From: a bacterium
GTDB taxonomy: Bacteria; UBP4; UBA4092; JAOAEQ01
NCBI GenBank assembly: GCA_026416715.1
Contig: JAOAEQ010000018.1
Span: forward strand, 12,358 to 76,357
Length of the DNA stretch: 64,000 bases
Direction: 5' to 3'
Within the stretch, counting starts at the first letter, position 1, and every line of letters starts with the position of its first letter. Below the pieces are notes generated by a model that worked only from the letters and a program-made list of their open reading frames with translations, was not told the origin of the DNA and ran no database searches. Shown in pieces: positions 47,204-63,366 of this stretch. Made by a program: the position numbers and the translations under genes.

Positions 47204-48427
47204 ATGCAACCATCAAAACTATTCATCGTAACGATACGGATGCTAGTACTCCGCTCATTAAGTAGTAGCGCAGGATTAACTGATATTGCCTATTCACCAT
47301 TCACGATGAACCGTTCTGGGTCGTATATCCTAGTTGGTGATATTACCGTAGCGCAAAACTAGTATGGAATATACATCCAAAGTAGTAATGTAACGATTGA
47401 TTTAAATGGTCATACCCTTTTGGGTGCTGGAACTTCTACCGGTTCGATGGGTAGCGGAATTTATGCGACTTCTACATCACATAATATTACAGTTAAAAAT
47501 GGAACGGTGTGCGATTTTTATAGTCAAGGGGTTCAGTTATGGGGCAGCAATAACCGAGTTATCCACGTTAATGCTATTAGAAATGGAAATATCGGTTTAA
47601 ACACTAAAGATAATAGCACGATTATCGAGTGTATTGCTGCAGAAAATGGGTCGTATGGATTTTATATCGGATATAATTGTACCCTGCGAGGAAATAATGC
47701 GTTTCAAAATAAAAATCACGGGATTAACACCGATAGCTGTTGCACGATAATCAACAACACGTCTTCTGATAATCAGGTTCACGGGATCCTTGCTGGGATA
47801 GGGTCAGTGGTTATTGGAAATACCGTTTCCAATAATTCCGGCACTGGAATACTTGCTAGGAGCGGCAGTACCGTTATCAATAATAGCGCCTATCGAAACA
47901 ACAAGTATGGGATTTATGCTGAATATTACGGCAACGTAATCGGGAACAATACTTATAATAATGGTAAATCTGGTATTTATGTTGGTTCCGGAAGCGCAGC
48001 AATTAATAATGTCAGTAATAACAATACGAATCACGGAATTTATGCTGTTGTTCATTGTATGATTGTAGGGAATATGTGTCATCAAGGGGTTATCAACCAC
48101 AGTTGGTGCAGGAATTTATATTGGTAACTACGATTGTGTGATTGAAGATAATGTTTGTATAGGAAACGATTATGGATTACAAATTAGTTTTTCTGGAAAC
48201 TACTATGCACGGAATAAATTTTCTGCTAATACCACGAACTTAAGTGTTGCTGCCGGAAATACCGCTGGTACTGACGATAATGGTAACATTTCATTCTATT
48301 ACAACTCATTCTATTACAACAATCAACTGATAGAACTGCAACTCGTGGGAATCCAGTTATTGCCGATCAACCGTGTATGTGAATATCCTCGGAAACAAAT
48401 GCTCCGCTGGTAGTTTTTTATATTTAA
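47204..48427 (+). pseudogene. Broken NosD-like parallel beta-helix protein
   Basis: From the ATG at 47204 (after GAAAGGAG) a frame encodes SPFTMNRSGSYILVGDI, then hits an amber TAG at 47360-47362 and continues in the same frame with IDLNGHTLLG and many N-x-x-GI-x-V strands. Near a GGGG run at 48086-48089 the reading must shift by one base to continue (VGAGIYIGNYDCVIEDN). Near 48320 it shifts again to GNPVIADQPC and, after a TGA, ISSETNAP to 48427. At least one stop and two shifts make this a decaying gene, or several sequencing errors. Intact relatives are secreted beta-helix proteins. Confidence 0.8.
48291..48320 (+). repeat. 15-bp tandem duplication inside the beta-helix pseudogene
   Basis: TCATTCTATTACAAC at 48291-48305 is repeated exactly at 48306-48320, adding SFYYN twice. 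It lies just before one of the frame breaks, which fits slippage. Confidence 0.85.
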
Positions 48428-50620: not shown

Positions 50621-51172
50621 CTATTTCGATGATTGATTTATGTTTTTTAATCTTATTTCTTGCTTGCGATATTTATCAATAAGCGCACTAACCTTTTCTG
50701 GTAACATACGAACATATACAGTATCATTTATCTGCAATACCGGCGATAATCCACAACAACCAAGACAACGGGTGATATTTAAACTAAATAGTCCGTCCGG
50801 GGTAGTATCCCCTACACCGATGTTAAGTTTCTCCTTCAACTTATCTAAAATTCGCGCACCACCAGCAACGTAACATGCGGTTCCTTTACAGATGGAAATT
50901 TGATATTTCCCCTTCGGTTTCAATGAAAAAAAATTATAAAATGTTACCATTCCATATATATGCGCTGTCGGAACTTCTAACTGCTCTGCAATAAAATCTA
51001 TCGCTTCTTGCGGAATGTACCCGAATAACGTCTGGGTCTTATGCAAAATGTCCATCAATTTACCGTGTTCGGCACGTTCTACTTGTTTACTGGTTAAATA
51101 TTTTCCTAACAATTTCATATTCTTTTTAAACTGTACATTTTGTTGTGCTTCTCTACCGTTACCCTTACTCAT
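50621..51172 (-). CDS. hydC: [FeFe]-hydrogenase subunit HydC1 (NuoE-like)
   Basis: 183 residues from the ATG at 51172, which follows GAGGGGG closely. An in-frame upstream start at 51313 would overlap hydA1 and is rejected. A thioredoxin-like [2Fe-2S] domain with C95-x4-C100 and C136-x3-C140, as in NuoE and HndA. It relays electrons in NADH-linked hydrogenases with HydA and HydB. The N-terminus is about 15 residues longer than the second copy. Nineteen bases downstream of hydA1. Confidence 0.93.
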   Translation of the reverse strand: MSKGNGREAQQNVQFKKNMKLLGKYLTSKQVERAEHGKLMDILHKTQTLFGYIPQEAIDFIAEQLEVPTAHIYGMVTFYNFFSLKPKGKYQISICKGTACYVAGGARILDKLKEKLNIGVGDTTPDGLFSLNITRCLGCCGLSPVLQINDTVYVRMLPEKVSALIDKYRKQEIRLKNINQSSK

Positions 51173-51191: not shown

Positions 51192-52976
51192 TTAGGTAAT
51201 GCTAAAAGTTTGTGGTTTTTTAGGAGCAACACCTTTCGGTGTCCGTTTTTGATAGTGAGTATGCAATAACTGATGCGATTTATGACTAAGCGGTTTTTCC
51301 AAAAATTCGGCATAAAGTTTTAAAATCTGCGGGTTTAAATGTGCTTTTCGAATCGGTTTATTTCGATCGATTGTATAAAGTCCTTCAGCACGTTTAGCAT
51401 AAATACTTTTCTCCATTACCTTCGAAGTATCACGAGGTATAGGTTGTCCTCCCCCACCTAAACATCCGCCGGGACATGCCATAATTTCAATAAAATGATA
51501 CGATTTATTTTCCTTTTCAACTTCGGTCAATAACCGATGCGCATTGAGTAATCCATACGCTACCGCAACCCGAACTTTGTTCCCATCGATATCCAACTCA
51601 GTTTCTTTAATCCCATCAAATCCGCGAACGACAGTGAAATCTACCTTATCAAGATTTTTTTGGGTAATTAATTCATAGGCCGTGCGTAACGCTGCTTCCA
51701 TAACTCCTCCGGTTGCACCGAATATTGGTGCAGCTCCAGTTGATTCACCTAATTCATTATCAAATTCCGATTCCGGTAAATTCGTGAACTGAATCCCCGC
51801 TTGTTGTATCATGTTAATTAACTCCCGAGTTGTTAATACTGCATCGACATCTTGGAATCCGCTTGAGTTCATCTCCTCCCGGCTCGCTTCATACTTTTTC
51901 GCAGTGCATGGCATAATACTAACACTAAATATTTTTGATGGGTCTATTCCAATTTTTTGCGCATAGTATGTTTTAATCAGCGCCCCTAACATCTGTTGCG
52001 GAGATTTACAACTCGATAGATGGTCTAATAACCGCGGATGAAAATGTTCACAGAATTTTATCCACCCGGGACTGCAGGACGTTATTAACGGTAGTTTACC
52101 TTTATTGCAAATTCGCTGAACTAATTCGTTTGCTTCCTCTACAACGGTTAAATCTGCTGAAAACTGCGTATCGAAAACCACATCGAATCCGAGCATCCGT
52201 AATGCGGTTACCGTTTGTTTGGTCATATCTACCCCAGGTTCTAATCCAAATCCTTCTCCAATTGCCACCCGAACCGCAGGCGCAATTTGCACGATAACTT
52301 TTTTCTCCGGGTCTGAAAGTGCATTCCAAACCTGTTCCGTAGCGTCGCGTTCCGTCAGTGCTCCCGTCGGACAGAAATTAACGCACTGCCCGCAATTAGC
52401 ACAAACGGTTTTTGCAAGTGGAATTTGATATGCGGTTGCAACTGTAGTCTTAAATCCGCGATTGATAAATGAAAGAGTATTTACTCCTTGGATTTCAGAG
52501 CAGGCACGTATACACTTTCCACATAATATACATTTATTCGGGTCTCGGATTAATGCTGGTGAAGAAGTATCTTGTGAAAATTCGAGCCGGTCACCTTCAA
52601 ATCTTAATTCTTTGATACCAATATCTTTCGCTAATTCCTGTAATTCGCATAGTTGGTTCTTTTCACATAGTTGACACTCTTTCGGATGCGCATCTAACAA
52701 AAGTTCGAGTAATACTTTCCGCGCTTCTCGAATTGCCGCAGAATTCGTCTGCACCATCATTCCTTCTGCAACCAACGTATTACACGAGACCGGATAATTT
52801 TTCATTCCTGCAACTTCAACGACACAAATCCGACATGCACCTACCGCACTTAATTTCGGATGGTAGCATAACCGCGGGATATGAATCCCAATACTATCAG
52901 CTGCTTGCATGATCGTATAATCTTTGGGTACTGTAACTTTTATTCCGTCTATAGTTAAAGTAACTTGCTGATTCAT
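51192..52976 (-). CDS. hydA: [FeFe]-hydrogenase catalytic subunit HydA1
   Basis: 594 residues, the NuoG-like modular type of trimeric bifurcating hydrogenases. Fe-S sites: [2Fe-2S] C37, C48, C51, C65; the His-ligated cluster H97, C101, C104, C110; two [4Fe-4S] C149/152/155/159 and C192/195/198/202. H-cluster motifs: TSCSPGW (299-305), MPCTAKK (355-361) and MACPGGC followed by GGGGQP (499-512), so C301, C357, C501 and C505 are present. The residue after C301 is serine where classic enzymes have the proton-relay cysteine (TSCCPxW). It should take up or evolve H2 in the cytoplasm. Downstream of the hydB1 fusion with six bases between. Confidence 0.95.
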   Translation of the reverse strand: MNQQVTLTIDGIKVTVPKDYTIMQAADSIGIHIPRLCYHPKLSAVGACRICVVEVAGMKNYPVSCNTLVAEGMMVQTNSAAIREARKVLLELLLDAHPKECQLCEKNQLCELQELAKDIGIKELRFEGDRLEFSQDTSSPALIRDPNKCILCGKCIRACSEIQGVNTLSFINRGFKTTVATAYQIPLAKTVCANCGQCVNFCPTGALTERDATEQVWNALSDPEKKVIVQIAPAVRVAIGEGFGLEPGVDMTKQTVTALRMLGFDVVFDTQFSADLTVVEEANELVQRICNKGKLPLITSCSPGWIKFCEHFHPRLLDHLSSCKSPQQMLGALIKTYYAQKIGIDPSKIFSVSIMPCTAKKYEASREEMNSSGFQDVDAVLTTRELINMIQQAGIQFTNLPESEFDNELGESTGAAPIFGATGGVMEAALRTAYELITQKNLDKVDFTVVRGFDGIKETELDIDGNKVRVAVAYGLLNAHRLLTEVEKENKSYHFIEIMACPGGCLGGGGQPIPRDTSKVMEKSIYAKRAEGLYTIDRNKPIRKAHLNPQILKLYAEFLEKPLSHKSHQLLHTHYQKRTPKGVAPKKPQTFSIT

Positions 52977-52982
52977 ATTCGA

Positions 52983-55900
52983 TTATTTGTTCTCCTTTCT
53001 ATCGCACCGCAGGCAGCGGTTCGCTTCAAACATCGCTGCTGCTCGAGTATATCCTCTGATAACTTCATTAAAATTATTTTTCCGATTCTGAATCGCTATC
53101 TTTCCATACGACGGACGATAACATTCTTTTACTTCCGCTGCCGGATCGAAATAAGCGACTTCTTTACGTTCGCCTTTAATGACAAACCGATTCTCCACTA
53201 AATTTTCCTTCCGTAAATAACGAGCTATTGATATCGCACCCTGTTCACCGTCGGATATAGCTTCTATAACGGTTCCAGCACTGCGAACCACATCTCCACC
53301 AGCGAATACACCGGGAATATTCGTCTCGAAGGTTCGTGGATTAATTTTGATGCATCCAGTCTCATCTACAGTCAATCCGATTGTTTTTGCTAAGTTATCC
53401 ACATCAGGTTGTGCTCCAATAGCGCTGATAACTAAATCTACTGGAAATGATATGATTTCTTCAGTAGCAATTGGTTTTCGCCGCCCGCTTAAATCGAATT
53501 CACCGGGTCTCATTTTTACGCACTGAATCTGCGTTACTTTACCTGACTCCCCTTTGATTGAAATCGGATTTAAATAAAAATGGAATGTGACTCCTTCCTG
53601 TTCTGCTTCGCTGATTTCATCTGGTATTGCAGGCATATCCTCTTTAGCCCGGCGATAAATGATTTTTACTTCTTCTGCGCCAAGTCGGATCGCGGTTCGC
53701 GCAGCATCTATTGCCGCATTTCCTCCTCCGATAACCGCAACTTTTTTACCGGCGAGTGAAATGCTCTTTTTTCCAATCCCATTTAAGTTCACTTGTTTCA
53801 AGAAACTTAATGAACTGAGAATCCCTTGTAAATTGCTACCTTCAATCTTTAACGGGACTTCTTTCCACGCACCGACCGCTAAATAAATCGCTTGAAATCC
53901 TTGCCGTTTCAGTTGGTCGAATGTAATATCTTTACCAACCGTTATCCCGGTTTTTATTCTTACGCCAATATTTTTGATTCGCTGGATATCATTTTGAATC
54001 ACGTCTCGCGGCAGCCGATATTTTGGAATCCCAAGCGTCATCATTCCACCGGGAATTTTCTCGGATTCAAATATCGTTACCGGATACCCCCGAATCGCTA
54101 AATGATATGCACAAGCTAATCCAGCTGGTCCGCTTCCAACTACGGCGACCTTCTCCGGATATCTATGTTTCGATTTATTAATTACTTTCAAATTAGTTCT
54201 TGCCGCATAATCTGCTGCAAATCGTTTTAAGAACATAATTGCTATCGGTTCATCGACTTTGCTACGACGACAGTTCGATTCACAGGGATGGTGGCAAATC
54301 CGTCCGCAAACTGACGGTAATGGATTACGATCGAAAATTGTCCGGAAACTTTCAGCAAATTTCCCTTCTCGAATATACCCAATATATTGTGGAATATCAA
54401 TATTGACCGGACAAGTATGTTGACACGGGGAAACGAACATCTCGCCACAAACTGCTGCTGGACATTTTCGTTCTTGAATATGCGCTTCATATTCCGACCG
54501 GAAATAGCGAATGGTTGATAAAACCGGATTCGGCGCGGTTTGTCCTAATCCGCATAATGCCGTCTTTTGAATCACATTACCTAATAGCTGTAGTTTTTCA
54601 ATATCGCCTTCTTGTCCTTGCCCAGAAGTAATACGAGTTAAAATTTCGAGCATACGTCGCGTTCCTTCACGACAGGGAGTGCATTTCCCACAGGACTCTT
54701 CAACCGTGAATTCTAGAAAGAACTTTGCCACATCAACCATGCAATCTTTCTCATCCATTACAATCATTCCACCAGAACCCATAATCGAGCCAGCGGTCAT
54801 TAACGAATCGTAATCAATTGGCGTATTTAAATACTGGACCGGTAAACAACCACCAGACGGTCCACCAGTTTGCACTGCTTTAAATTTATTTCCATTTTTA
54901 ATCCCACCACCAATATCAAAAATAACTTCGCCAATTGACGTTCCCATTGGAACTTCTACCAACCCTGTATTTTTAACTTTTCCAGCAAGTGCAAACACCT
55001 TCGTTCCTTTACTCTTTTCTGTGCCTATAGAAGCAAAATATTGCCAGCCATCAAGTAGCACTACCGGGATATTTGCCCAGGTTTCAACGTTATTGATTAA
55101 CGTCGGCTTTCCGCATAAACCTGAAACTGACGGATACGGTGGTCTGGTTCTCGGCATACCCCGCATACCTTCAATCGAATGAATTAAAGCGGTTTCTTCA
55201 CCGCAAACGAACGCACCTGCTCCAAGCACGACTTCTATATCAAATGAAAAATCTGTTCCTAAAATATTGTTCCCTAAAAAATTTAACGCTCGTGCTTGTT
55301 GCAATGCATTATGTAACCGTTCGACTGCTAACGGATATTCTGCACGGATATACACAATACCAAGATTTGCTCCCACTGCATAGCCGCCAATCGTCATCGC
55401 TTCTATAACCGAGAACGGATCACCTTCGATAATTCCGCGATCCATAAACGCACCAGGGTCACCTTCGTCCGCATTGCAGATGACATATTTTTCCTCCGAT
55501 TTCTGTTCCGAAACAAATTTCCACTTTAATCCGGTCGGAAATCCGCCGCCACCACGGCCTCGAAGACCGGATTTGATGATTTCTTCAATAACCTGTTCCG
55601 GTTTGTAATTTGCTAAAACTTTTGCAAGTGATTCATATCCGCGAACTGCCAAATAATCATCAATTCGTTCCGGATCTATCACGCCACAGTTTCGTAACGC
55701 CATTCTTTTTTGTTTGGTAAAATAATCAATATCACCAAAAATATAATGCGATTTATCGGTTAACAGATCTTTACTCATCCGTTCATATCCTGGTTTTTCT
55801 TTCGGAGAAGGAACATTATTTTTGACTAAATGGTCAATAACAATTTGTCGCGCTTTTTTTGCATCAACATTCTCATATTTGAACGGAATTTTGCCAAATT

Positions 55901-56147
55901 GAAGCACTTCTACCGTCGGTTCTAAATGACATCTCCCAACACAACCTTTTTTCCCAATATAGACATCCTTAATTTTCCGCTTTTTAATCTCCTGATGTAA
56001 AATATCCCAAACGATTTTAGAACCAGCAGCAATTTCGCAGGTCGACATTCCGACATTGATTCGGGTTGTTGCAGTCCATCGAGACAAATTCGTATGAATC
56101 GCTTCCTGTTTCTTTTTCTTTAATACTTTCAACGGATTACTACCCAT
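52983..56147 (-). CDS. hydB: HydB1: HndB-like/NuoF/GltD triple fusion flavoprotein
   Basis: 1054 residues. About 1-110: thioredoxin-like HndB domain (C37, C69, C73). 130-550: NuoF/HydB with the FMN and NADH sites GLRGRGGGGFPTGLKW (195-209) and NADEGDPGAFMDR, an SLBB domain and the [4Fe-4S] site C486/C489/C492 and C532. The C-terminal ferredoxin domain of ordinary HydB is missing. In its place 560-1054 is a GltD/NfnB-like module: Cys-rich N-terminus (C562, C567, C575, C579; C614, C618, C622, C626), FAD motif VVGSGPAGLACA (669-680), NAD(P) motif VIGGGNAAIDAA (805-816) and YRRAKEDMPA, the GltD NADPH-site pattern. Predicted to link H2, ferredoxin and NADH with NADPH. The reaction is inferred. Confidence 0.9.
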   Translation of the reverse strand: MGSNPLKVLKKKKQEAIHTNLSRWTATTRINVGMSTCEIAAGSKIVWDILHQEIKKRKIKDVYIGKKGCVGRCHLEPTVEVLQFGKIPFKYENVDAKKARQIVIDHLVKNNVPSPKEKPGYERMSKDLLTDKSHYIFGDIDYFTKQKRMALRNCGVIDPERIDDYLAVRGYESLAKVLANYKPEQVIEEIIKSGLRGRGGGGFPTGLKWKFVSEQKSEEKYVICNADEGDPGAFMDRGIIEGDPFSVIEAMTIGGYAVGANLGIVYIRAEYPLAVERLHNALQQARALNFLGNNILGTDFSFDIEVVLGAGAFVCGEETALIHSIEGMRGMPRTRPPYPSVSGLCGKPTLINNVETWANIPVVLLDGWQYFASIGTEKSKGTKVFALAGKVKNTGLVEVPMGTSIGEVIFDIGGGIKNGNKFKAVQTGGPSGGCLPVQYLNTPIDYDSLMTAGSIMGSGGMIVMDEKDCMVDVAKFFLEFTVEESCGKCTPCREGTRRMLEILTRITSGQGQEGDIEKLQLLGNVIQKTALCGLGQTAPNPVLSTIRYFRSEYEAHIQERKCPAAVCGEMFVSPCQHTCPVNIDIPQYIGYIREGKFAESFRTIFDRNPLPSVCGRICHHPCESNCRRSKVDEPIAIMFLKRFAADYAARTNLKVINKSKHRYPEKVAVVGSGPAGLACAYHLAIRGYPVTIFESEKIPGGMMTLGIPKYRLPRDVIQNDIQRIKNIGVRIKTGITVGKDITFDQLKRQGFQAIYLAVGAWKEVPLKIEGSNLQGILSSLSFLKQVNLNGIGKKSISLAGKKVAVIGGGNAAIDAARTAIRLGAEEVKIIYRRAKEDMPAIPDEISEAEQEGVTFHFYLNPISIKGESGKVTQIQCVKMRPGEFDLSGRRKPIATEEIISFPVDLVISAIGAQPDVDNLAKTIGLTVDETGCIKINPRTFETNIPGVFAGGDVVRSAGTVIEAISDGEQGAISIARYLRKENLVENRFVIKGERKEVAYFDPAAEVKECYRPSYGKIAIQNRKNNFNEVIRGYTRAAAMFEANRCLRCDRKENK

Positions 56148-56410: not shown

Positions 56411-57463
56411 TTATTTCCTAGTTATTGTTATGGTATCTCCAATAGAATAATCAATATATCTGCCGATAGAATTGGCAAGAGATTCCATCCAGAAACCAGA
56501 GGCACCGACCGGGCCTTCGACACATCGCTTACCTGGATATATTTCATAATATTTCCGATACGGAAACGGGGTAAAATTCAGCATCAATACATTCGCACCA
56601 GATTTCAATCCTTCAATTCGATAGTCGTGTCCTAAACTGCCTAATGCGGTTGTCGCCGGAATATTTGGATATTTCGTTACAATACGAGTTATTGCAATTG
56701 TCTTTAACGTCAATAACGCATCCCCGTTTATTTCATTCGCTAGTTCTGTTCCAGGATGCGAAATAAACGGTCCGATTCCAATCATATCGAGTCCTTCTTG
56801 CTTAAAAAAAAGGATATCGTTAGCGATGGTTTCAAGTGTTTGTCCTTTTAATCCAATAATATTTCCGGAACCAGTCTGATACCCAAGTTGCTTTAATTGT
56901 TTTATACATCGAAACCGATTCTCAAAACTCATTCCAGGATGCAGTGTTTGATATAGCTCTGGATCCGAAGTTTCAATTTTCAGCAGATATCGGTCTGCAC
57001 CAGCTTCCCGCCATAGGCGATATTCCGCATAGCTTCTCTCTCCGACTGATAAAGTTACCGCTATGGTAAACTTCGCTTTTATTTCCGCGATAATTTCACT
57101 CAACCAATCAGGATTGAGATCATTATCTTCACCAGATTGTAGTACAACAGTTTTAATTCCAGCTCGCACTACTTGTTCTACACTATTAAGGATTTCATGC
57201 TTCGATAACCGATACCGTTTGATTCGGGAATTTTTTCTATTTAATCCGCAGTAACAACAGGCGTTGCGACAATAATTTGAGAACTCGATAATCCCACGAA
57301 TAAGAATCCCATCCCCTACATATTCTTTTCGAACCTTATCTGCGAAGTTAAATAAAGCTTCTAGTTCAGATTCTGCTTTCAACGAAAGAAGAGAGATAAT
57401 ATCTTCTTGTTCAGGGAAATATTTAGAATATACAATAGATAAAATTTCGTCAATCTTAGACAT
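56411..57463 (-). CDS. hydE: [FeFe]-hydrogenase maturase HydE
   Basis: 350 residues from the ATG at 57463, which overlaps the hydG stop by eight bases; an ATG at 57493 would add ten residues. Radical SAM core with YCRNACCYCG (CX3CX2C), SGED, GLKGQTLETIANDI and PGTELA segments of the HydE/BioB-like family. HydE acts on the Fe(Cys)(CO)2CN synthon in building the H-cluster dithiomethylamine site. Together with HydG and HydF it matures HydA. Only HydE and HydG are in the window. Confidence 0.94.
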   Translation of the reverse strand: MSKIDEILSIVYSKYFPEQEDIISLLSLKAESELEALFNFADKVRKEYVGDGILIRGIIEFSNYCRNACCYCGLNRKNSRIKRYRLSKHEILNSVEQVVRAGIKTVVLQSGEDNDLNPDWLSEIIAEIKAKFTIAVTLSVGERSYAEYRLWREAGADRYLLKIETSDPELYQTLHPGMSFENRFRCIKQLKQLGYQTGSGNIIGLKGQTLETIANDILFFKQEGLDMIGIGPFISHPGTELANEINGDALLTLKTIAITRIVTKYPNIPATTALGSLGHDYRIEGLKSGANVLMLNFTPFPYRKYYEIYPGKRCVEGPVGASGFWMESLANSIGRYIDYSIGDTITITRK

Positions 57464-58850
57464 ATGTATCTCGAATTCCACGATTAATTTCATCGAAAAA
57501 CGCAGCTAACTGTTTCTGTTCACGATCAGTTAAACAAGTTTTCATCTGTTCAATGAGTTTATATCCTTCAGTTCGAACATTATCAGAAGCAAAATCATCC
57601 AGATACTCTTTAAGCGTTATTAACGCATTAATACTGCATTTGCCTTTAATTGTTCCAGGTTTTGCTAACGCCATAAAAGTTTCTCCGGTTCGTTCTTTTC
57701 GATAGCAAGCAGCACAAAAACTCGGGATATATTTCTGCTGAATTAACGACCCGATAACTTCATCGAGAGTACGATGATCACTAACCGCAAACTGTGGGTC
57801 ACTGAAATATTCTTTCTCTTGTGAAGTATATCCACCGGGAGCAGTATTCGATTCTGCACTAATTTGTGATACTCCGAGATTCACTAGTTCATCCCGGAGT
57901 TGCGGCGTTTCCCGAGTGGATAAAATGATTCCGGTATAAGGGACTGAGAGCCGAAGAATCGCCACGAGTTTCTTGAAATCCGTATCAGCAACTCGATACG
58001 GAATGTGTTCAGTAAACTCGACACCGGGTGCAGGTTCAATCCTCGGAACTGAAATAGTGTGCGGCCCAACATTGAACTTGTTCTCAAGCGCTTCGATATG
58101 CATTAACATCGCTAAGGTATCGAACCGATAATCATAAAGACCATAGAGAACTCCAATACCGACATCGTCTATGCCAGCTGCAAAAGCGCGGTCAATTGCT
58201 TCAATTCGATTATTCGGGTCACTTTTCGGTCCTTTCGGATGTACGTAACGATAGGTTGGCTCATGATAGGTTTCTTGAAAAATTTGGTAGGTGCCAATGC
58301 CAGCCGATTTTAACTGTTTAAATTCATCGACGGTCAACGGAGCACAGTTGATATTTACTCGCCGAATCTTATGTGGACCAACAGAAACAGAATATACCGC
58401 GTTAATCGCATTAATATAATAATCTATTAACGACCATTCTCCAGCTGGTTTTGCTTCTCCAGCTACAAGAAGAATTCGTTTATGTCCACGGTTTAATAAC
58501 CACTCAACTTGTTGTTTGATTTCATCTTGAGATAACGCTTTCCGTTTAACCAGTTTATTTTCCGAATTAAAGCCACAATACCGACATGCGTTTGCGCAGT
58601 AATTACTTATATATAAAGGAGCAAATAAAACAATCCGTTTTCCATAAATTGCATTTTTAACCCAAGCAGCGGTCTCAAAAATCTTTTGGATATCTTCTGG
58701 CGTTTCGACCGCCAATAAGGTAGCAGTTTCAGATAATGATAAGCGTTGTAATGATTTTGCTTTTTGCAAAATCGCATCTACTTCACCTGAGGTAACCGGT
58801 TTTGAGTTCGTTAGTAATTCTTCAATTTTAGCTTCGTTAATATACTTCAT
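57456..58850 (-). CDS. hydG: [FeFe]-hydrogenase maturase HydG, tyrosine lyase
   Basis: 464 residues, usual length. Radical SAM site YCANACRYCG (C85, C89, C92) and the HydG-specific C-terminal CX2CX22C (CAACYRKERTGETFM to GKC) that holds the auxiliary cluster and dangler iron. It cleaves tyrosine to p-cresol, CO and cyanide and supplies the diatomic ligands of the H-cluster. Closest relatives by motif are HydG rather than ThiH because of the CX2CX22C. Overlaps hydE and follows hydC2 by 30 bases. Confidence 0.95.
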   Translation of the reverse strand: MKYINEAKIEELLTNSKPVTSGEVDAILQKAKSLQRLSLSETATLLAVETPEDIQKIFETAAWVKNAIYGKRIVLFAPLYISNYCANACRYCGFNSENKLVKRKALSQDEIKQQVEWLLNRGHKRILLVAGEAKPAGEWSLIDYYINAINAVYSVSVGPHKIRRVNINCAPLTVDEFKQLKSAGIGTYQIFQETYHEPTYRYVHPKGPKSDPNNRIEAIDRAFAAGIDDVGIGVLYGLYDYRFDTLAMLMHIEALENKFNVGPHTISVPRIEPAPGVEFTEHIPYRVADTDFKKLVAILRLSVPYTGIILSTRETPQLRDELVNLGVSQISAESNTAPGGYTSQEKEYFSDPQFAVSDHRTLDEVIGSLIQQKYIPSFCAACYRKERTGETFMALAKPGTIKGKCSINALITLKEYLDDFASDNVRTEGYKLIEQMKTCLTDREQKQLAAFFDEINRGIRDTYV

Positions 58851-58880: not shown

Positions 58881-59384
58881 TTATTTATCAGCAAGTTTTC
58901 TATAATATTTGATAATTTCTATCACCTTTTTCGGGGTTAACGAACCATATATTTTATCTTCAACCATAATAACTGGAGCTATACCGCAAGCGCCAAGACA
59001 TCGGGCTGATTGCAATGTAAACAATCTATCCTCAGTAGTTTCTCCCAGAGGAACTTGAAGATTGTCTTGAAGAGTATTTAAAATATCCTGTGCACCTTTG
59101 ATATAACACGCTGTTCCTAAACAAACTGATACTCGATATTTCCCACGTGGTTTCAGGTTGAAATAATGATAAAATGTGGCAACACCCCAAATATGCGCTG
59201 TAGGGATATTCATTTGCAATGCAATTGCATCCATAACTTCTTGTGATAGATATCCATATAACTCCTGCGCTCTATGCAAGATGGCAATGAGATACGATTC
59301 TGGATGTTCTTGCTTTTTTACTGCGTCAATAAATTGAAGTAGTTCTGATAAATCTACTGTGGTTTTCACTTTCGATCCTGTCAT
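58881..59384 (-). CDS. hydC: [FeFe]-hydrogenase subunit HydC2 (NuoE-like)
   Basis: 167 residues with C88-x4-C93 and C129-x3-C133 for one [2Fe-2S] cluster in a thioredoxin-like fold. GAGGAG is six bases before the ATG. Paralogue of HydC1. Encoded 14 bases after hydA2 and followed by hydG on the same strand. Confidence 0.94.
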   Translation of the reverse strand: MTGSKVKTTVDLSELLQFIDAVKKQEHPESYLIAILHRAQELYGYLSQEVMDAIALQMNIPTAHIWGVATFYHYFNLKPRGKYRVSVCLGTACYIKGAQDILNTLQDNLQVPLGETTEDRLFTLQSARCLGACGIAPVIMVEDKIYGSLTPKKVIEIIKYYRKLADK

Positions 59385-59398
59385 CAGTTGCTCCTCTA

Positions 59399-61183
59399 TT
59401 ATCGTAACGTAAGTTGATGCGGAATAATGCCAACAGGTTTTTTCGCTTTATAATGGGTATGGAGTAACTTATGGGCTAATGGACTCAATGGACGACCAAG
59501 ATATTTCTTATATATCCGTTGAATATCAGGGTTTTCATAACTTCGTCGAATTGTTTTCGCTCGGTCAATCTGGTATAACGCTTCGGCTCGTTTCTGTAAG
59601 CAGGATTCATCTAACGGAATAGAATTGATTCCCGCATAAGGTTGCCCTCCCCCACCGATACATCCTCCGGGACAACCCATAATTTCTATGAAATGATACC
59701 TCGTAGGGTCAGAACGAACAATTTCTAATAATGCATTTGCGTTTCCTAACCCATGGGCTACAGCAACGCGAATTTCTTTATTATCCAACATTAACTTCCC
59801 TTCTTTTATTCCTTGAAATCCACGCAATTCATCAAATTCTATGTCTAATAATGTTTCTCCGAGATAAAGTTCATAAGCGGTTCGCAGTGCGGATTCCATA
59901 ACCCCGCCAGTGGTTCCAAAAATTGTCCCTCCACCCGATGAAATACCCAGTGGTTCATCGAATTCTTCCGGTTCTAAATCGAGAAAATCTATCCCAGCTG
60001 ATTGAATCATCCACGCTATTTCACGAGTGGTAACCACGATGTCAACTCCTTTTAATCCGTTTATCATCAATTCCGGTCGTTCTGCTTCATATTTTTTTGC
60101 CGTACAACACATCACTGCTACACTTAATATCTTTTTCGGATCAACTTTAATTTTTTCGGCAAAATAAGTCCTGATAAGCGCTCCTATCATTGACATCGGT
60201 GATTTACAGGTTGAAACATTATCAATTAAATCCGGATAAAATTGTTCCATACATTTCATCCACGCACTTGAACATGAAGTTATCATCGGAAGTTTTCCTT
60301 GACCTTGAATTCGTTCAATAAATTCACTCGCTTCTTCCATAATAGTTAAATCCGCACCAAGCTGGGTGTCGAACACATAATCAAACCCTAAACGATGTAA
60401 CGCCGCAACCAGCTCTCCTTGCAGAGAAGTTCCTGGCGGTAACCCAAAAGCTTCTCCAATTGAAGCGCGAACTGAAGGAGCAAATTGCACCACTTTAATC
60501 AAATTCGGATCGTTGAGTTTTTTAAACAATTCTTGAGTATAATTGCGTTCCACAAATGCTGCTGTAGGACAAACATTGATACATTGTCCGCATGTTGTAC
60601 AAACCGTTTCTGTAAAAGGAAGATTATATGCCGGCATAACCACCGTTTGAAAACCACGATATGCATAATTCAATGCATTAATTTTTTGGATTTCGGAACA
60701 TATCCGAACACACCGGCCACAGAGTATGCATTTATTGGGGTCACGGATTACTGACGGTGACGATAAATCTTTATCATACTGTTTCTTTTCACCGACGAAA
60801 TGTCGGTTTCGAATTCCCATAATCGAAGCTAACCGTTGTAATTCACAATTCCCGTCCCGTTCACAGGTATGGCAATCTTCCGGATGGTTATCGAGAATTA
60901 ATTCAATAATATCGCGGCGCGCCCGACGAAGTTCATCGGTGTTCGTCCAGATTTTCATTCCGTCTGCAACGGGATACGCACATGAAGCTACATACGTCTT
61001 CATTCCTTCAATCTGAACAATACACACCCGACAAGCTCCTTCGATAGATAATCGTGGATGATAACACAAGCGCGGGATACGAAACCCAAGTTTATCCGCC
61101 GCCTGCATAATTGTCTGATTACTCTCAACTTTATACGGTTTGCCGTTGAAATAAATCGTAATATACTGCTTATTCTTTTTCAT
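59399..61183 (-). CDS. hydA: HydA2: divergent [FeFe]-hydrogenase catalytic-type subunit
   Basis: 594 residues, same modular Fe-S architecture as HydA1 ([2Fe-2S], His-ligated cluster, two [4Fe-4S]). The H-cluster cysteines are kept (C304, C360, C504, C508), but surrounding residues differ: TSCSSAW (302-308) instead of TSCCPxW, MCCTAKK (358-364) instead of MPCxxK, and MGCPGGC (502-508) instead of MACPGGC. The C-terminal PLSPLAHKLLHTHY tail is shared with HydA1. It likely still carries an H-cluster, with altered activity, oxygen response or direction, or a sensory role. Belongs to the hydB2-hydA2-hydC2 set. Confidence 0.92.
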   Translation of the reverse strand: MKKNKQYITIYFNGKPYKVESNQTIMQAADKLGFRIPRLCYHPRLSIEGACRVCIVQIEGMKTYVASCAYPVADGMKIWTNTDELRRARRDIIELILDNHPEDCHTCERDGNCELQRLASIMGIRNRHFVGEKKQYDKDLSSPSVIRDPNKCILCGRCVRICSEIQKINALNYAYRGFQTVVMPAYNLPFTETVCTTCGQCINVCPTAAFVERNYTQELFKKLNDPNLIKVVQFAPSVRASIGEAFGLPPGTSLQGELVAALHRLGFDYVFDTQLGADLTIMEEASEFIERIQGQGKLPMITSCSSAWMKCMEQFYPDLIDNVSTCKSPMSMIGALIRTYFAEKIKVDPKKILSVAVMCCTAKKYEAERPELMINGLKGVDIVVTTREIAWMIQSAGIDFLDLEPEEFDEPLGISSGGGTIFGTTGGVMESALRTAYELYLGETLLDIEFDELRGFQGIKEGKLMLDNKEIRVAVAHGLGNANALLEIVRSDPTRYHFIEIMGCPGGCIGGGGQPYAGINSIPLDESCLQKRAEALYQIDRAKTIRRSYENPDIQRIYKKYLGRPLSPLAHKLLHTHYKAKKPVGIIPHQLTLR

Positions 61184-61195
61184 AGCAATATTTCG

Positions 61196-62992
61196 TTATA
61201 CCTTTGTGATAGCGTTAAAATTGCAGGTGTTGTAACATAACCCGCATTTGATACATTTGCTTTGGTCAATCACATGCCGTTGTTTCGCACTGCCGGAAAT
61301 CGCAGCGGTTGGGCATACTCTTTTACAGGCAGTGCAACCGGTACAGTTTTCGGTTATTGTATAGGTTAAAAGTGAAGGGCAAAAATGCGCCCGACATTTT
61401 TTATCTCGAATATGTTCTTCATATTCGTTCCGAAAATGTTTAATGGTACTTAATACCGGGTTTGGGCCTGATTGGCCTAACCCACATAACGAGGCTTTTT
61501 TAATCATTGTTCCGAGACGCTCTAATTTTTCAATATCTCCTTCCACGCCTTTACCTTCTGTAATGCGTTCGAGAATTTCTAACATTCGTTTTGTCCCTTC
61601 GCGACATGGTGTGCATTTTCCGCAGGACTCGTTTTGCGTAAATTCTAAAAAATATCGCGCGACGTTAACCATACACGAATCTTCATCAATAACTATCATT
61701 CCACCGGAGCCCATAATTGAACCAGCTTGAATTAAAGATTCATAATCGATTTGGGTATCAAGATAGCTTTCGGGTATGCATCCTCCTGAAGGGCCTCCGG
61801 TTTGGACCGCTTTAAACTTCTTATTATTTGGAATGCCACCACCAATATCATAGATGATACTACGTAACGTTGTTCCCATTGGCACCTCAACTAATCCGGT
61901 ATTATTTATTTTCCCAGCTAATGCAAACACTTTAGTTCCTTTGCTTTTTTCAGTGCCGATTGAGCTGAACCATTTTGCTCCATCGAGGATAATCACAGGT
62001 ATATTCGCCCAAGTCTCGACGTTATTGATTAAAGTCGGTTTGTCAAATAATCCTTGTACGGAAGGATATGGCGGACGGGGACGGGGCATCCCCCGATGTC
62101 CTTCAATCGAATGGATTAATGCGGTCTCTTCACCGCAGACATAAGCACCAGCACCTAATCGAATCTCTAAATCGAAAGAAAAATTTGACCCTAAAATGTT
62201 TTTCCCTAAAAATCCTTCGTTGCGCGCTGATTCAATTGCTAATTCCAACCGTTTAATCGCTAACGGATACTCCGCACGAATATAGATATACCCTTGCCTC
62301 GAATTGATAGCATACGCTCCGATAATCATACCTTCCAAAATCGAATGTGGATCTCCTTCAATCATACTACGGTCCATAAATGCACCAGGGTCTCCTTCAT
62401 CCGCATTACAAATAACATATTTAATTTCATCCGCTTCTTTTGCAGTTAATTCCCATTTGAGACCAGTCAAAAAACCTGCTCCGCCACGACCTCGTAAACC
62501 GGATTTTTTCACCTCTGCTATCACCTGTTCAGGAGTCATCTCGGTGAGAACTTTCCCTAATGCTTCATACCCTCGCAGGGCGAGGTAATCGTCTATACTT
62601 TCAGGATCAATAATCCCACAATTCCGCAATGCGATACGCATTTGCTTTCCAAAAAAATGTACGTCACCAAAGATACGGTAGAATCGATTGAATAGATGGT
62701 CTTCATCGACAACCAACCGACTCACCGGTTTTCCTTTAACCAAATGTTCCTCAATAATTTTCGGAATGTCCTTTTCAGTTACCGCTCCATAAATGGTATA
62801 CCCTGGATTGACTATCATTATCGGTCCTTTTTCACACATACCCAAACAACCAGATAAACAGATTTGAACTTTTTCTTTCAATCCATGTTTCGTTAATGCC
62901 TGATCTAGGATTTGCGTTAATTCTTTTACCCGCTTATGAATACAACTCGGTCCATCACACAGGGTAATAACATATTTTTTTATTTTCGCCAT
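61196..62992 (-). CDS. hydB: [FeFe]-hydrogenase subunit HydB2 (NADH/FMN subunit)
   Basis: 598 residues from the ATG at 62992, downstream of a GGTGG-type ribosome site; an upstream ATG at 63025 would overlap the HndB-like gene. N-terminal thioredoxin-like [2Fe-2S] (C12, C17, C45, C49, C53 region), FMN/NADH site GLRGRGGAGF (165-174) and NADEGDPGAFMDR, SLBB, CGKCTPCREGT [4Fe-4S], and a C-terminal 2[4Fe-4S] ferredoxin (CTGCTACKRVCP, CIKCGLCYNTCN). This is the ordinary HydB layout, unlike HydB1. Electrons pass between NADH, ferredoxin and HydA2. Twelve bases before hydA2. Confidence 0.95.
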   Translation of the reverse strand: MAKIKKYVITLCDGPSCIHKRVKELTQILDQALTKHGLKEKVQICLSGCLGMCEKGPIMIVNPGYTIYGAVTEKDIPKIIEEHLVKGKPVSRLVVDEDHLFNRFYRIFGDVHFFGKQMRIALRNCGIIDPESIDDYLALRGYEALGKVLTEMTPEQVIAEVKKSGLRGRGGAGFLTGLKWELTAKEADEIKYVICNADEGDPGAFMDRSMIEGDPHSILEGMIIGAYAINSRQGYIYIRAEYPLAIKRLELAIESARNEGFLGKNILGSNFSFDLEIRLGAGAYVCGEETALIHSIEGHRGMPRPRPPYPSVQGLFDKPTLINNVETWANIPVIILDGAKWFSSIGTEKSKGTKVFALAGKINNTGLVEVPMGTTLRSIIYDIGGGIPNNKKFKAVQTGGPSGGCIPESYLDTQIDYESLIQAGSIMGSGGMIVIDEDSCMVNVARYFLEFTQNESCGKCTPCREGTKRMLEILERITEGKGVEGDIEKLERLGTMIKKASLCGLGQSGPNPVLSTIKHFRNEYEEHIRDKKCRAHFCPSLLTYTITENCTGCTACKRVCPTAAISGSAKQRHVIDQSKCIKCGLCYNTCNFNAITKV

Positions 62993-63009
62993 GTCTTGGT
63001 TCCCACCTT

Positions 63010-63366
63010 TTATCGAATAACCCAATCTTCAATAATATCACCTTTTTTTATATGTCGTTCGATAATTTCTTTTGCCATTTCTTTAGTTACTTTACCGTAT
63101 TTAACAGGAATTTTACCTTCTTCAACTACCTCTACCGTCGGTTCGAGATTGCATCTGCCAGCACAACCTTTTTGACTTAAATAAACGTCAGTTAATCCGC
63201 TTTGAATCGCGTGTTGAAAAACTTCCATAACCTCTTTTGAACCAGCGGCAATTTCACATGTCGCCATGCCAACATAAATTCGTTTGGTTGATAAATACCC
63301 TTTACTGATAATTCGATTTATTGCTTGTGCCCGTTTCTTTTTAACTATGTCTAATGGCGTTACCAT
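63010..63366 (-). CDS. HndB-like thioredoxin-fold subunit of hydrogenase 2
   Basis: 118 residues, homologous to the first 110 residues of HydB1 (both have MxTCEIAAGSK and GCxGRCxLEPTVEV). C37, C68 and C72 are the only cysteines, so binding of a [2Fe-2S] cluster is uncertain. Equivalent small subunits occur as HndB or HydD in hydrogenase operons of Desulfovibrio and Acetobacterium. The ATG is one base after the stop of the sensor-kinase gene. Confidence 0.88.
   Translation of the reverse strand: MVTPLDIVKKKRAQAINRIISKGYLSTKRIYVGMATCEIAAGSKEVMEVFQHAIQSGLTDVYLSQKGCAGRCNLEPTVEVVEEGKIPVKYGKVTKEMAKEIIERHIKKGDIIEDWVIR

Follow-up and report, generated by a model that had tools for sequence, protein, structure and literature searches.

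The question raised by this locus, which lies in a window of 64,000 nucleotides (the whole stretch of DNA that was analysed), is which electron carriers a HydABC-type [FeFe]-hydrogenase would serve when the C-terminal ferredoxin module of its HydB subunit is exchanged for a GltD module. The original prediction, made from the letters of the window, held that such an enzyme could couple H2, NADH, NADPH and ferredoxin in one complex.

A single frame joins HydB to GltD

The gene is one uninterrupted frame, running from an ATG at 56147, with a clear Shine-Dalgarno sequence upstream, to a stop at 52983; the plus strand at 52983..56147 is full of stops. The domains of its product bear out the prediction of HndB-like, NuoF/HydB and GltD-like parts within one protein:

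52983..56147, minus strand: HydB-GltD fusion, 3165-base uninterrupted frame, 1054 aa
Residues 1-125: HndB-like domain
Residues about 130-567: NuoF/HydB core with the FMN/NADH site, B1 and the B2/Zn site
Residues 192-361: Complex1_51K (Pfam)
Between Complex1_51K and NADH_4Fe-4S: SLBB (Pfam)
Residues 472-556: NADH_4Fe-4S (Pfam)
Residues 563-651: Fer4_20 dicluster (Pfam)
Residues 666-967: Pyr_redox_2 (Pfam); FAD/NADPH domain, 666-980
Residues 1044-1048: C-terminal RCLRC

Across the core, up to the joint, the fusion is 62% identical to the ordinary HydB encoded nearby (P0004, 61196..63025). That neighbour contains a Fer4 domain, whereas the fusion gives no Pfam match to the Fer4 family and carries Fer4_20 instead, as foreseen for a HydB whose ferredoxin module has been swapped for the Cys-rich domain of GltD. 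The N-terminal 125 residues are 47% identical to the product of the HndB gene that stands by itself in the ordinary operon nearby (P0007), also the closest match to this domain outside the fusion's own clade; they contain three Cys, at a place where most other fusions carry a four-Cys domain. A frameshift or assembly artefact is excluded as the origin of the fusion, since the same full-length frame recurs in many independent assemblies.

The fusion heads a compact hydrogenase operon

The fusion is the first gene of an operon in the order B-A-C, which sits next to maturase genes and a second, ordinary hydABC operon:

51192..52976, minus strand: HydA, [FeFe]-hydrogenase catalytic subunit, 594 aa (NF040763, 881 bits; TIGR02512, 527 bits)
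50621..51172, minus strand: HydC, thioredoxin-like [2Fe-2S] subunit, 183 aa (PF01257)
56411..57493, minus strand: HydE, H-cluster radical SAM maturase (TIGR03956, 330 bits, cut-off 254.6)
57456..58850, minus strand: HydG, H-cluster radical SAM maturase (TIGR03955, 522 bits, cut-off 312)
58881..59384, minus strand: HydC2, ordinary hydABC operon
59399..61183, minus strand: HydA2, ordinary hydABC operon
61196..63025, minus strand: HydB2, ordinary hydABC operon, keeping the C-terminal 2x[4Fe-4S] ferredoxin domain
63010..63366, minus strand: separate HndB-like gene (P0007), ordinary operon

The stop of the fusion is separated by 6 bases from the ATG of HydA at 52976, and the end of HydA by 19 bases from the likely start of HydC, which we place at the ATG at 51172, with its purine-rich ribosome site, rather than at 51313; the three genes thus form one tight operon. 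Within it, no NfnA-type partner and no extra ferredoxin gene was found. HydE and HydG lie upstream of the fusion and HydF is encoded elsewhere in the genome. HydA has the P1, P2 and P3 motifs of group A [FeFe]-hydrogenases (TSCSPGW in P1, MPCTAKKYE in P2, MACPGGCLGGGGQ, and MACPGGC in P3), and TSCSPGW, MPCTAKK and MACPGGC occur likewise in A. woodii HydA1 (7q4v_A). The idea of a degenerate HydA, which arose when TSCSPGW was first taken for a lost ligand, was dropped because the A. woodii protein carries the identical motif.

The genome contains exactly two [FeFe]-hydrogenases, the fusion-linked one and the ordinary one, and a separate ferredoxin-type HydABC is kept in its relatives as well. 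HydA2 (59399-61183) deviates at the H-cluster, with TSCSSAW in P1 (Pro to Ser), MCCTAKK in P2 (Pro to Cys) and GISSGGG for GESTGAA, and judged by these motifs its activity may be altered. Elsewhere in the genome, an NfnAB pair stands beside folD (L118, G000:C1:152500-158500), so that an additional enzyme connects NADPH, NADH and ferredoxin; a further locus (L119, G000:C36:8500-18500) holds an Hdr/Mvh-type [NiFe] cluster in which a diverged NuoF-like protein of 597 aa with altered FMN loops adjoins an HdrA-like protein. In the window itself, adjacent frames at 47420-48127 and 48138-48413, between two TPR genes, resemble one split beta-helix repeat protein, possibly a frameshift or pseudogene.

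Cofactor sites are complete on both sides of the joint

Core residues were assigned from the A. mobile numbers given in PMC8880783 and PMC9304861, shifted by an offset of 31. All FMN/NADH residues are in place (K208, F211, N225, E228, F313, E318), as are the FMN-loop motifs AFM (233-235), GAGAF (309-313) and GGPSG (428-432), which are described as marks of bifurcating HydB (PMC8880783). The B1 ligands are C486/489/492/532, and the B2/Zn set is complete (C469, T507, H556, C562, C567). The first Cys after C567 is C575, already part of the GltD module, in which homology assigns C575, C626, C1045 and C1048 to the distal cluster and C579, C618, C622 and K641 to the proximal one. The C-terminal RCLRC is the counterpart of the N-terminal Cys pair of NfnB, relocated as in StnC; K641 aligns with the Lys170 ligand of StnC and R711 with its Arg239. 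The FAD-binding GxGxxG is present, and Y831-R832-R833 forms the YRR motif, a sign of NADP(H) use in NfnB and DsrL-2 (PMC7596348). The GltD part accordingly fits an FAD/NADPH site by its GxGxxG, YRR and R711, and the protein as a whole has the two flavin and pyridine-nucleotide sites (FMN plus FAD) and the many Fe-S ligands that the original prediction read from it.

These features are widely conserved. The sequence H-x5-C-x4-C runs straight into the PCxxxCP of Fer4_20 in all 39 distinct fusions; AFM is found in 37, GAGAF in 36 and GGPSG in 38 of these. YRRxxxxMPA, the nucleotide-binding motif whose loss in relatives would have spoken against the prediction, is likewise kept in 37 of the 39. 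In the 34 fusions that were aligned, every assigned Fe-S ligand is invariant, together with K641 and R711, the exception being C37 in the N-terminal domain. Three relatives have NADH_4Fe-4S and GltD without the FMN domain (L044, L126, L127); C567 is absent from all three, and the other three B2/Zn ligands are kept by two of them and by the third not at all. The loss of C567 in these proteins indicates that the complete B2/Zn set goes with the FMN core. By its Lys ligand, permuted Cys pair and YRR motif, the GltD half is of the StnC type, not of the bifurcating NfnB type.

An AlphaFold2 model of the fusion, built with 39 aligned sequences, has a pLDDT of 88.4 and a pTM of 0.83. Its VIA-align matches, a list dominated by the NuoF half and saying little on the GltD half, include 9bp5_B (Z 59.5), 8oh5_B (StnB; Z 53.9) and 9n5u_B (Z 48.7). 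For the latter two the aligned ranges run past the core to residue 637, which brings part of their ferredoxin domain onto Fer4_20 of the fusion.

The fusion is widespread and changes partners

Full-length homologues were found in independent assemblies, as the original prediction had proposed to check. A genome scan recovered fusions 64-69% identical to that of the window from assemblies of Elusimicrobiota, Firestoneibacteriota and Auribacterota (L001-L007, L009), each with HydA next and then HydC where the contig is long enough; more distant fusions occur in Thermodesulfobacteriota (L008) and Latescibacterota (L010). In a sample drawn outwards from the window's genome, 47 of 386 bacterial genomes encode a NuoF-GltD fusion, and HydA with an H-cluster domain adjoins about half of the 39 distinct ones.

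Other fusions keep different company. A genome of the same phylum as the window (G001) encodes a fusion 48% identical to the window's (L086, G001:C79:4000-19000), followed by a NuoG-like subunit and the small and large subunits of a [NiFe]-hydrogenase, with HydA not next. In G022 the fusion lies inside a complex I operon, where nuoA, B, C, D and G adjoin it (L089, G022:C36:1-12000), and the same fusion recurs in a genome of the same family (L113, G169); this context suggests a complex I that takes in electrons from NADH and from NADPH alike. In G002 the fusion adjoins an Hdr-like Fe-S protein, and in the Thermodesulfobacteriota locus (L008, 532-5505) genes that by eye resemble MetV and MetF come after NuoE and the fusion, a hint of a methylene-THF reductase complex linked to NAD(P)H. 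Of the FMN-less proteins, one adjoins HydA (L044) and another has nuoD on one side and a nuoG-like gene on the other, within a complex I operon (L127, G012:C34:24000-31000), as if NuoF had there been replaced by GltD.

In a tree of NuoF domains, the ten fusions of the window's clade form one fully supported clade, whose nearest kin are ordinary HydB from the window's genome and from Endomicrobia. A single origin of all fusions by their NuoF half was rejected (AU p 0.0047, with labels picked after seeing the data); the GltD halves are compatible with one origin. This pattern fits an exit module that may have been exchanged repeatedly at one joint.

NADP(H) may stand in for ferredoxin

The sequence itself shows the fusion, a full set of cofactor ligands, the absence of the ferredoxin domain and the operon with HydA and HydC. 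Our preferred reading, held with moderate confidence, is that the fusion serves as beta subunit in a second bifurcating HydABC of the Bfu type, one linked to NADP(H), in which NADP(H) replaces ferredoxin and the FAD does not bifurcate. HydA, HydC and the fusion would form one complex. The unchanged FMN core, with B1 and the B2/Zn site, would handle NAD(H), and the ferredoxin domain with B3/B4, the low-potential exit, would be replaced by GltD, a path of two [4Fe-4S] clusters, FAD and NADP(H) that electrons would enter from the B1/B2 region. The GltD FAD would then only transfer electrons, and transfer to NAD and NADP would be gated, as bifurcation or confurcation, with ferredoxin left unused. 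The most likely reaction would be 2 H2 + NAD+ + NADP+ <-> NADH + NADPH + 2 H+, in which NADPH, at about -370 mV in cells, would be the partner of lower potential and NADH, at about -280 mV, that of higher potential.

The expected coupling of four carriers in one complex is thus retained in part. H2 is supported by the intact H-cluster motifs of HydA and the presence of HydE, HydG and HydF, NADH by the full set of FMN/NADH residues, and NADPH by the YRR motif and the FAD site; the enzyme probably exchanges electrons between these three, and we infer a transhydrogenase-hydrogenase role for the complex. The ferredoxin part of the claim is not supported: the C-terminal domain of HydB, which carries B3/B4, docks ferredoxin (PMC9304861, PMC8880783), and it is this domain that is missing, which makes ferredoxin an unlikely substrate.

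Several considerations count against the preferred reading. The HydB of S. wolfei, which also lacks B3/B4, does not bifurcate and belongs to an ordinary NADH hydrogenase (PMC5626996), a precedent by which an enzyme that has lost the ferredoxin domain may no longer bifurcate. When H2 pressure is low, the energetics calculation indicates that NADH is enough by itself to drive H2 formation, so that energetics do not demand gating; the B2 site may hold a structural zinc rather than an electron carrier, a point on which PMC8880783 and PMC10482914 differ; and the HndB-like domain, with its three Cys, departs from the standard four-Cys B5 domain. A rival to the preferred reading is a non-bifurcating two-nucleotide hydrogenase, in which FMN/NAD and FAD/NADP would both be fed through a shared B1 wire, each by its own potential. 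The S. wolfei enzyme fits this arrangement, as does the occurrence of GltD right behind NADH_4Fe-4S without an FMN domain, next to HydA or in a complex I operon, for in such proteins GltD is wired up with no FMN core present. We nevertheless consider it unlikely, if worth serious attention: nearly all 39 fusions retain AFM, GAGAF, GGPSG and the complete B2/Zn set, non-bifurcating HydB reportedly lacks the B2 His (PMC9304861), and an ungated enzyme would leak NADPH to NAD+ and waste the NADPH pool.

A different division of labour, in which the GltD FAD would be a second true bifurcating flavin, follows the proposal of Zheng and Huang (2024) for fusions of this type (PMC11406978). If ferredoxin still reacted at the distal GltD cluster, the enzyme would have the four substrates of the original prediction. 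R711 conserves the R201 that tunes the bifurcating FAD of NfnB, and the distal cluster of NfnB reduces ferredoxin (PMC10482914, PMC8097209). StnC has the same Arg, yet its FAD is reported as non-bifurcating, its GltD passing electrons between NADPH and the HydBC core (PMC10482914); the fusion shares with StnC, and not with NfnB, the Lys in place of Glu at the proximal cluster and the C-terminal Cys pair, its operon has neither an NfnA-type partner nor an extra ferredoxin gene, and electrons from the HydB core probably enter at the distal cluster. Because the hallmarks of a bifurcating FMN are kept, the ferredoxin domain is gone and the GltD is of the StnC type, NADP(H) is favoured over a second bifurcating FAD, which we hold to be quite improbable. 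The presence of both nucleotide sites on one chain, and the transhydrogenase activity of the Stn complexes, built from the same modules (PMC7483475), could also point to an enzyme with NADPH as donor that works mainly as an NADH/NADPH transhydrogenase and uses HydA as an overflow valve. This is very unlikely: the same tight operon encodes a complete HydA, the genome already has nfnAB for transhydrogenation, and Stn depends on the ferredoxin domain that the fusion lacks.

Consequences of the proposed NADP(H) exit

If NADPH replaces ferredoxin, as in the preferred reading, H2 could be made from NADH plus NADPH, or NADPH from H2 without ferredoxin. With NADH at -280 mV, NADPH at -370 mV and ferredoxin at -500 mV, the computed ceiling of H2 is about 3 Pa when NADH is the sole donor, up to about 100 Pa when NADH and NADPH are used 1:1 and about 15,600 Pa when ferredoxin joins NADH. 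In the Bfu-type bifurcating enzymes tested in the cited literature, the low-potential partner is ferredoxin; a natural swap of the ferredoxin domain for an NADPH module at one joint would be a test of what the FMN/Fe-S core needs for bifurcation. More tentatively, and in our view doubtful as a generalization, NuoF-GltD fusions could be a general plug-in that turns the ferredoxin exit of Bfu enzymes into an NADP(H) exit, a gated NAD/NADP core set on [FeFe]- and [NiFe]-hydrogenases, complex I, HdrA-like proteins and MetF, with NADPH as the low-potential partner. Given how widely the fusions occur and how their partners vary, surveys that demand the ferredoxin domain (IPR017896) seem to have overlooked a common branch.

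Comparison with known systems

Several known systems share parts of this enzyme. HydABC of group A3 (A. woodii, T. kivui, T. maritima) has HydA, HydC, the FMN core, B1 and B2/Zn in common with it, but ends in the B3/B4 ferredoxin domain and has no FAD or NADPH site. The 'glutamate synthase-linked' group A2 of HydDB (PMC5037454) resembles it in that a GltD protein adjoins HydA; membership was rejected because the A2 rule places a GltD without NuoF downstream of HydA, whereas here NuoF and GltD are one upstream protein and HydC is what follows HydA. NfnB of NfnAB shares the GltD fold, the FAD Arg and YRR, but has a Glu at the proximal cluster and an N-terminal Cys pair, neither of which is found in the fusion (K641, C1045/C1048), and needs NfnA. 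StnABC, or Nfn-Bfu, of Sporomusa ovata (PMC7483475, PMC10482914) combines a HydBC-type core with a GltD whose Lys ligand, permuted C-terminal Cys pair and FAD Arg all recur in the fusion as K641, RCLRC and R711; it differs in that its GltD is joined to a NuoG-like subunit, its StnB retains the ferredoxin domain and an H-cluster is lacking, and a Stn-type enzyme was ruled out since its GltD sits on another subunit. Of the features that define the Bfu family (Schut 2022), the fusion has FMN, B1 and the B2 His/Cys set, and the [2Fe-2S] HydC corresponds to BfuC, but the B3/B4 ferredoxin domain (IPR017896) is absent.

The architecture itself was already reported in 2024, in a paper whose tree covers 2,610 BfuABC sequences, and by its domain order the window gene joins that known kind. 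Zheng and Huang (mSystems; PMC11406978) named it sub-type I BfuB in Hydrogenedentota, with the B3/B4 domain replaced by DPD_II (= Fer4_20) and a C-terminal FAD/NAD(P) domain, listed relatives in Spirochaetota, Pseudomonadota, Planctomycetota, Verrucomicrobiota, Kiritimatiellota and Thermodesulfobacteriota, and postulated the FAD as a possible second bifurcation centre, stating that more studies are required. The fusion has exactly this succession of core, DPD_II and FAD/NAD(P) domain, and by the published description sub-type I BfuABC is also alike in its partner BfuA with an H-cluster and in its patchy spread over phyla; it often has a separate BfuD gene, whereas the window's fusion bears an HndB/BfuD-like N-terminus with three Cys and stands in the order B-A-C. 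To this known kind the present analysis adds the HndB-like N-terminus of the window's clade, the residue-level case for a StnC-like, NADP-linked GltD, the complete B2/Zn set tied to the FMN core, and the non-[FeFe] partners of the fusion.
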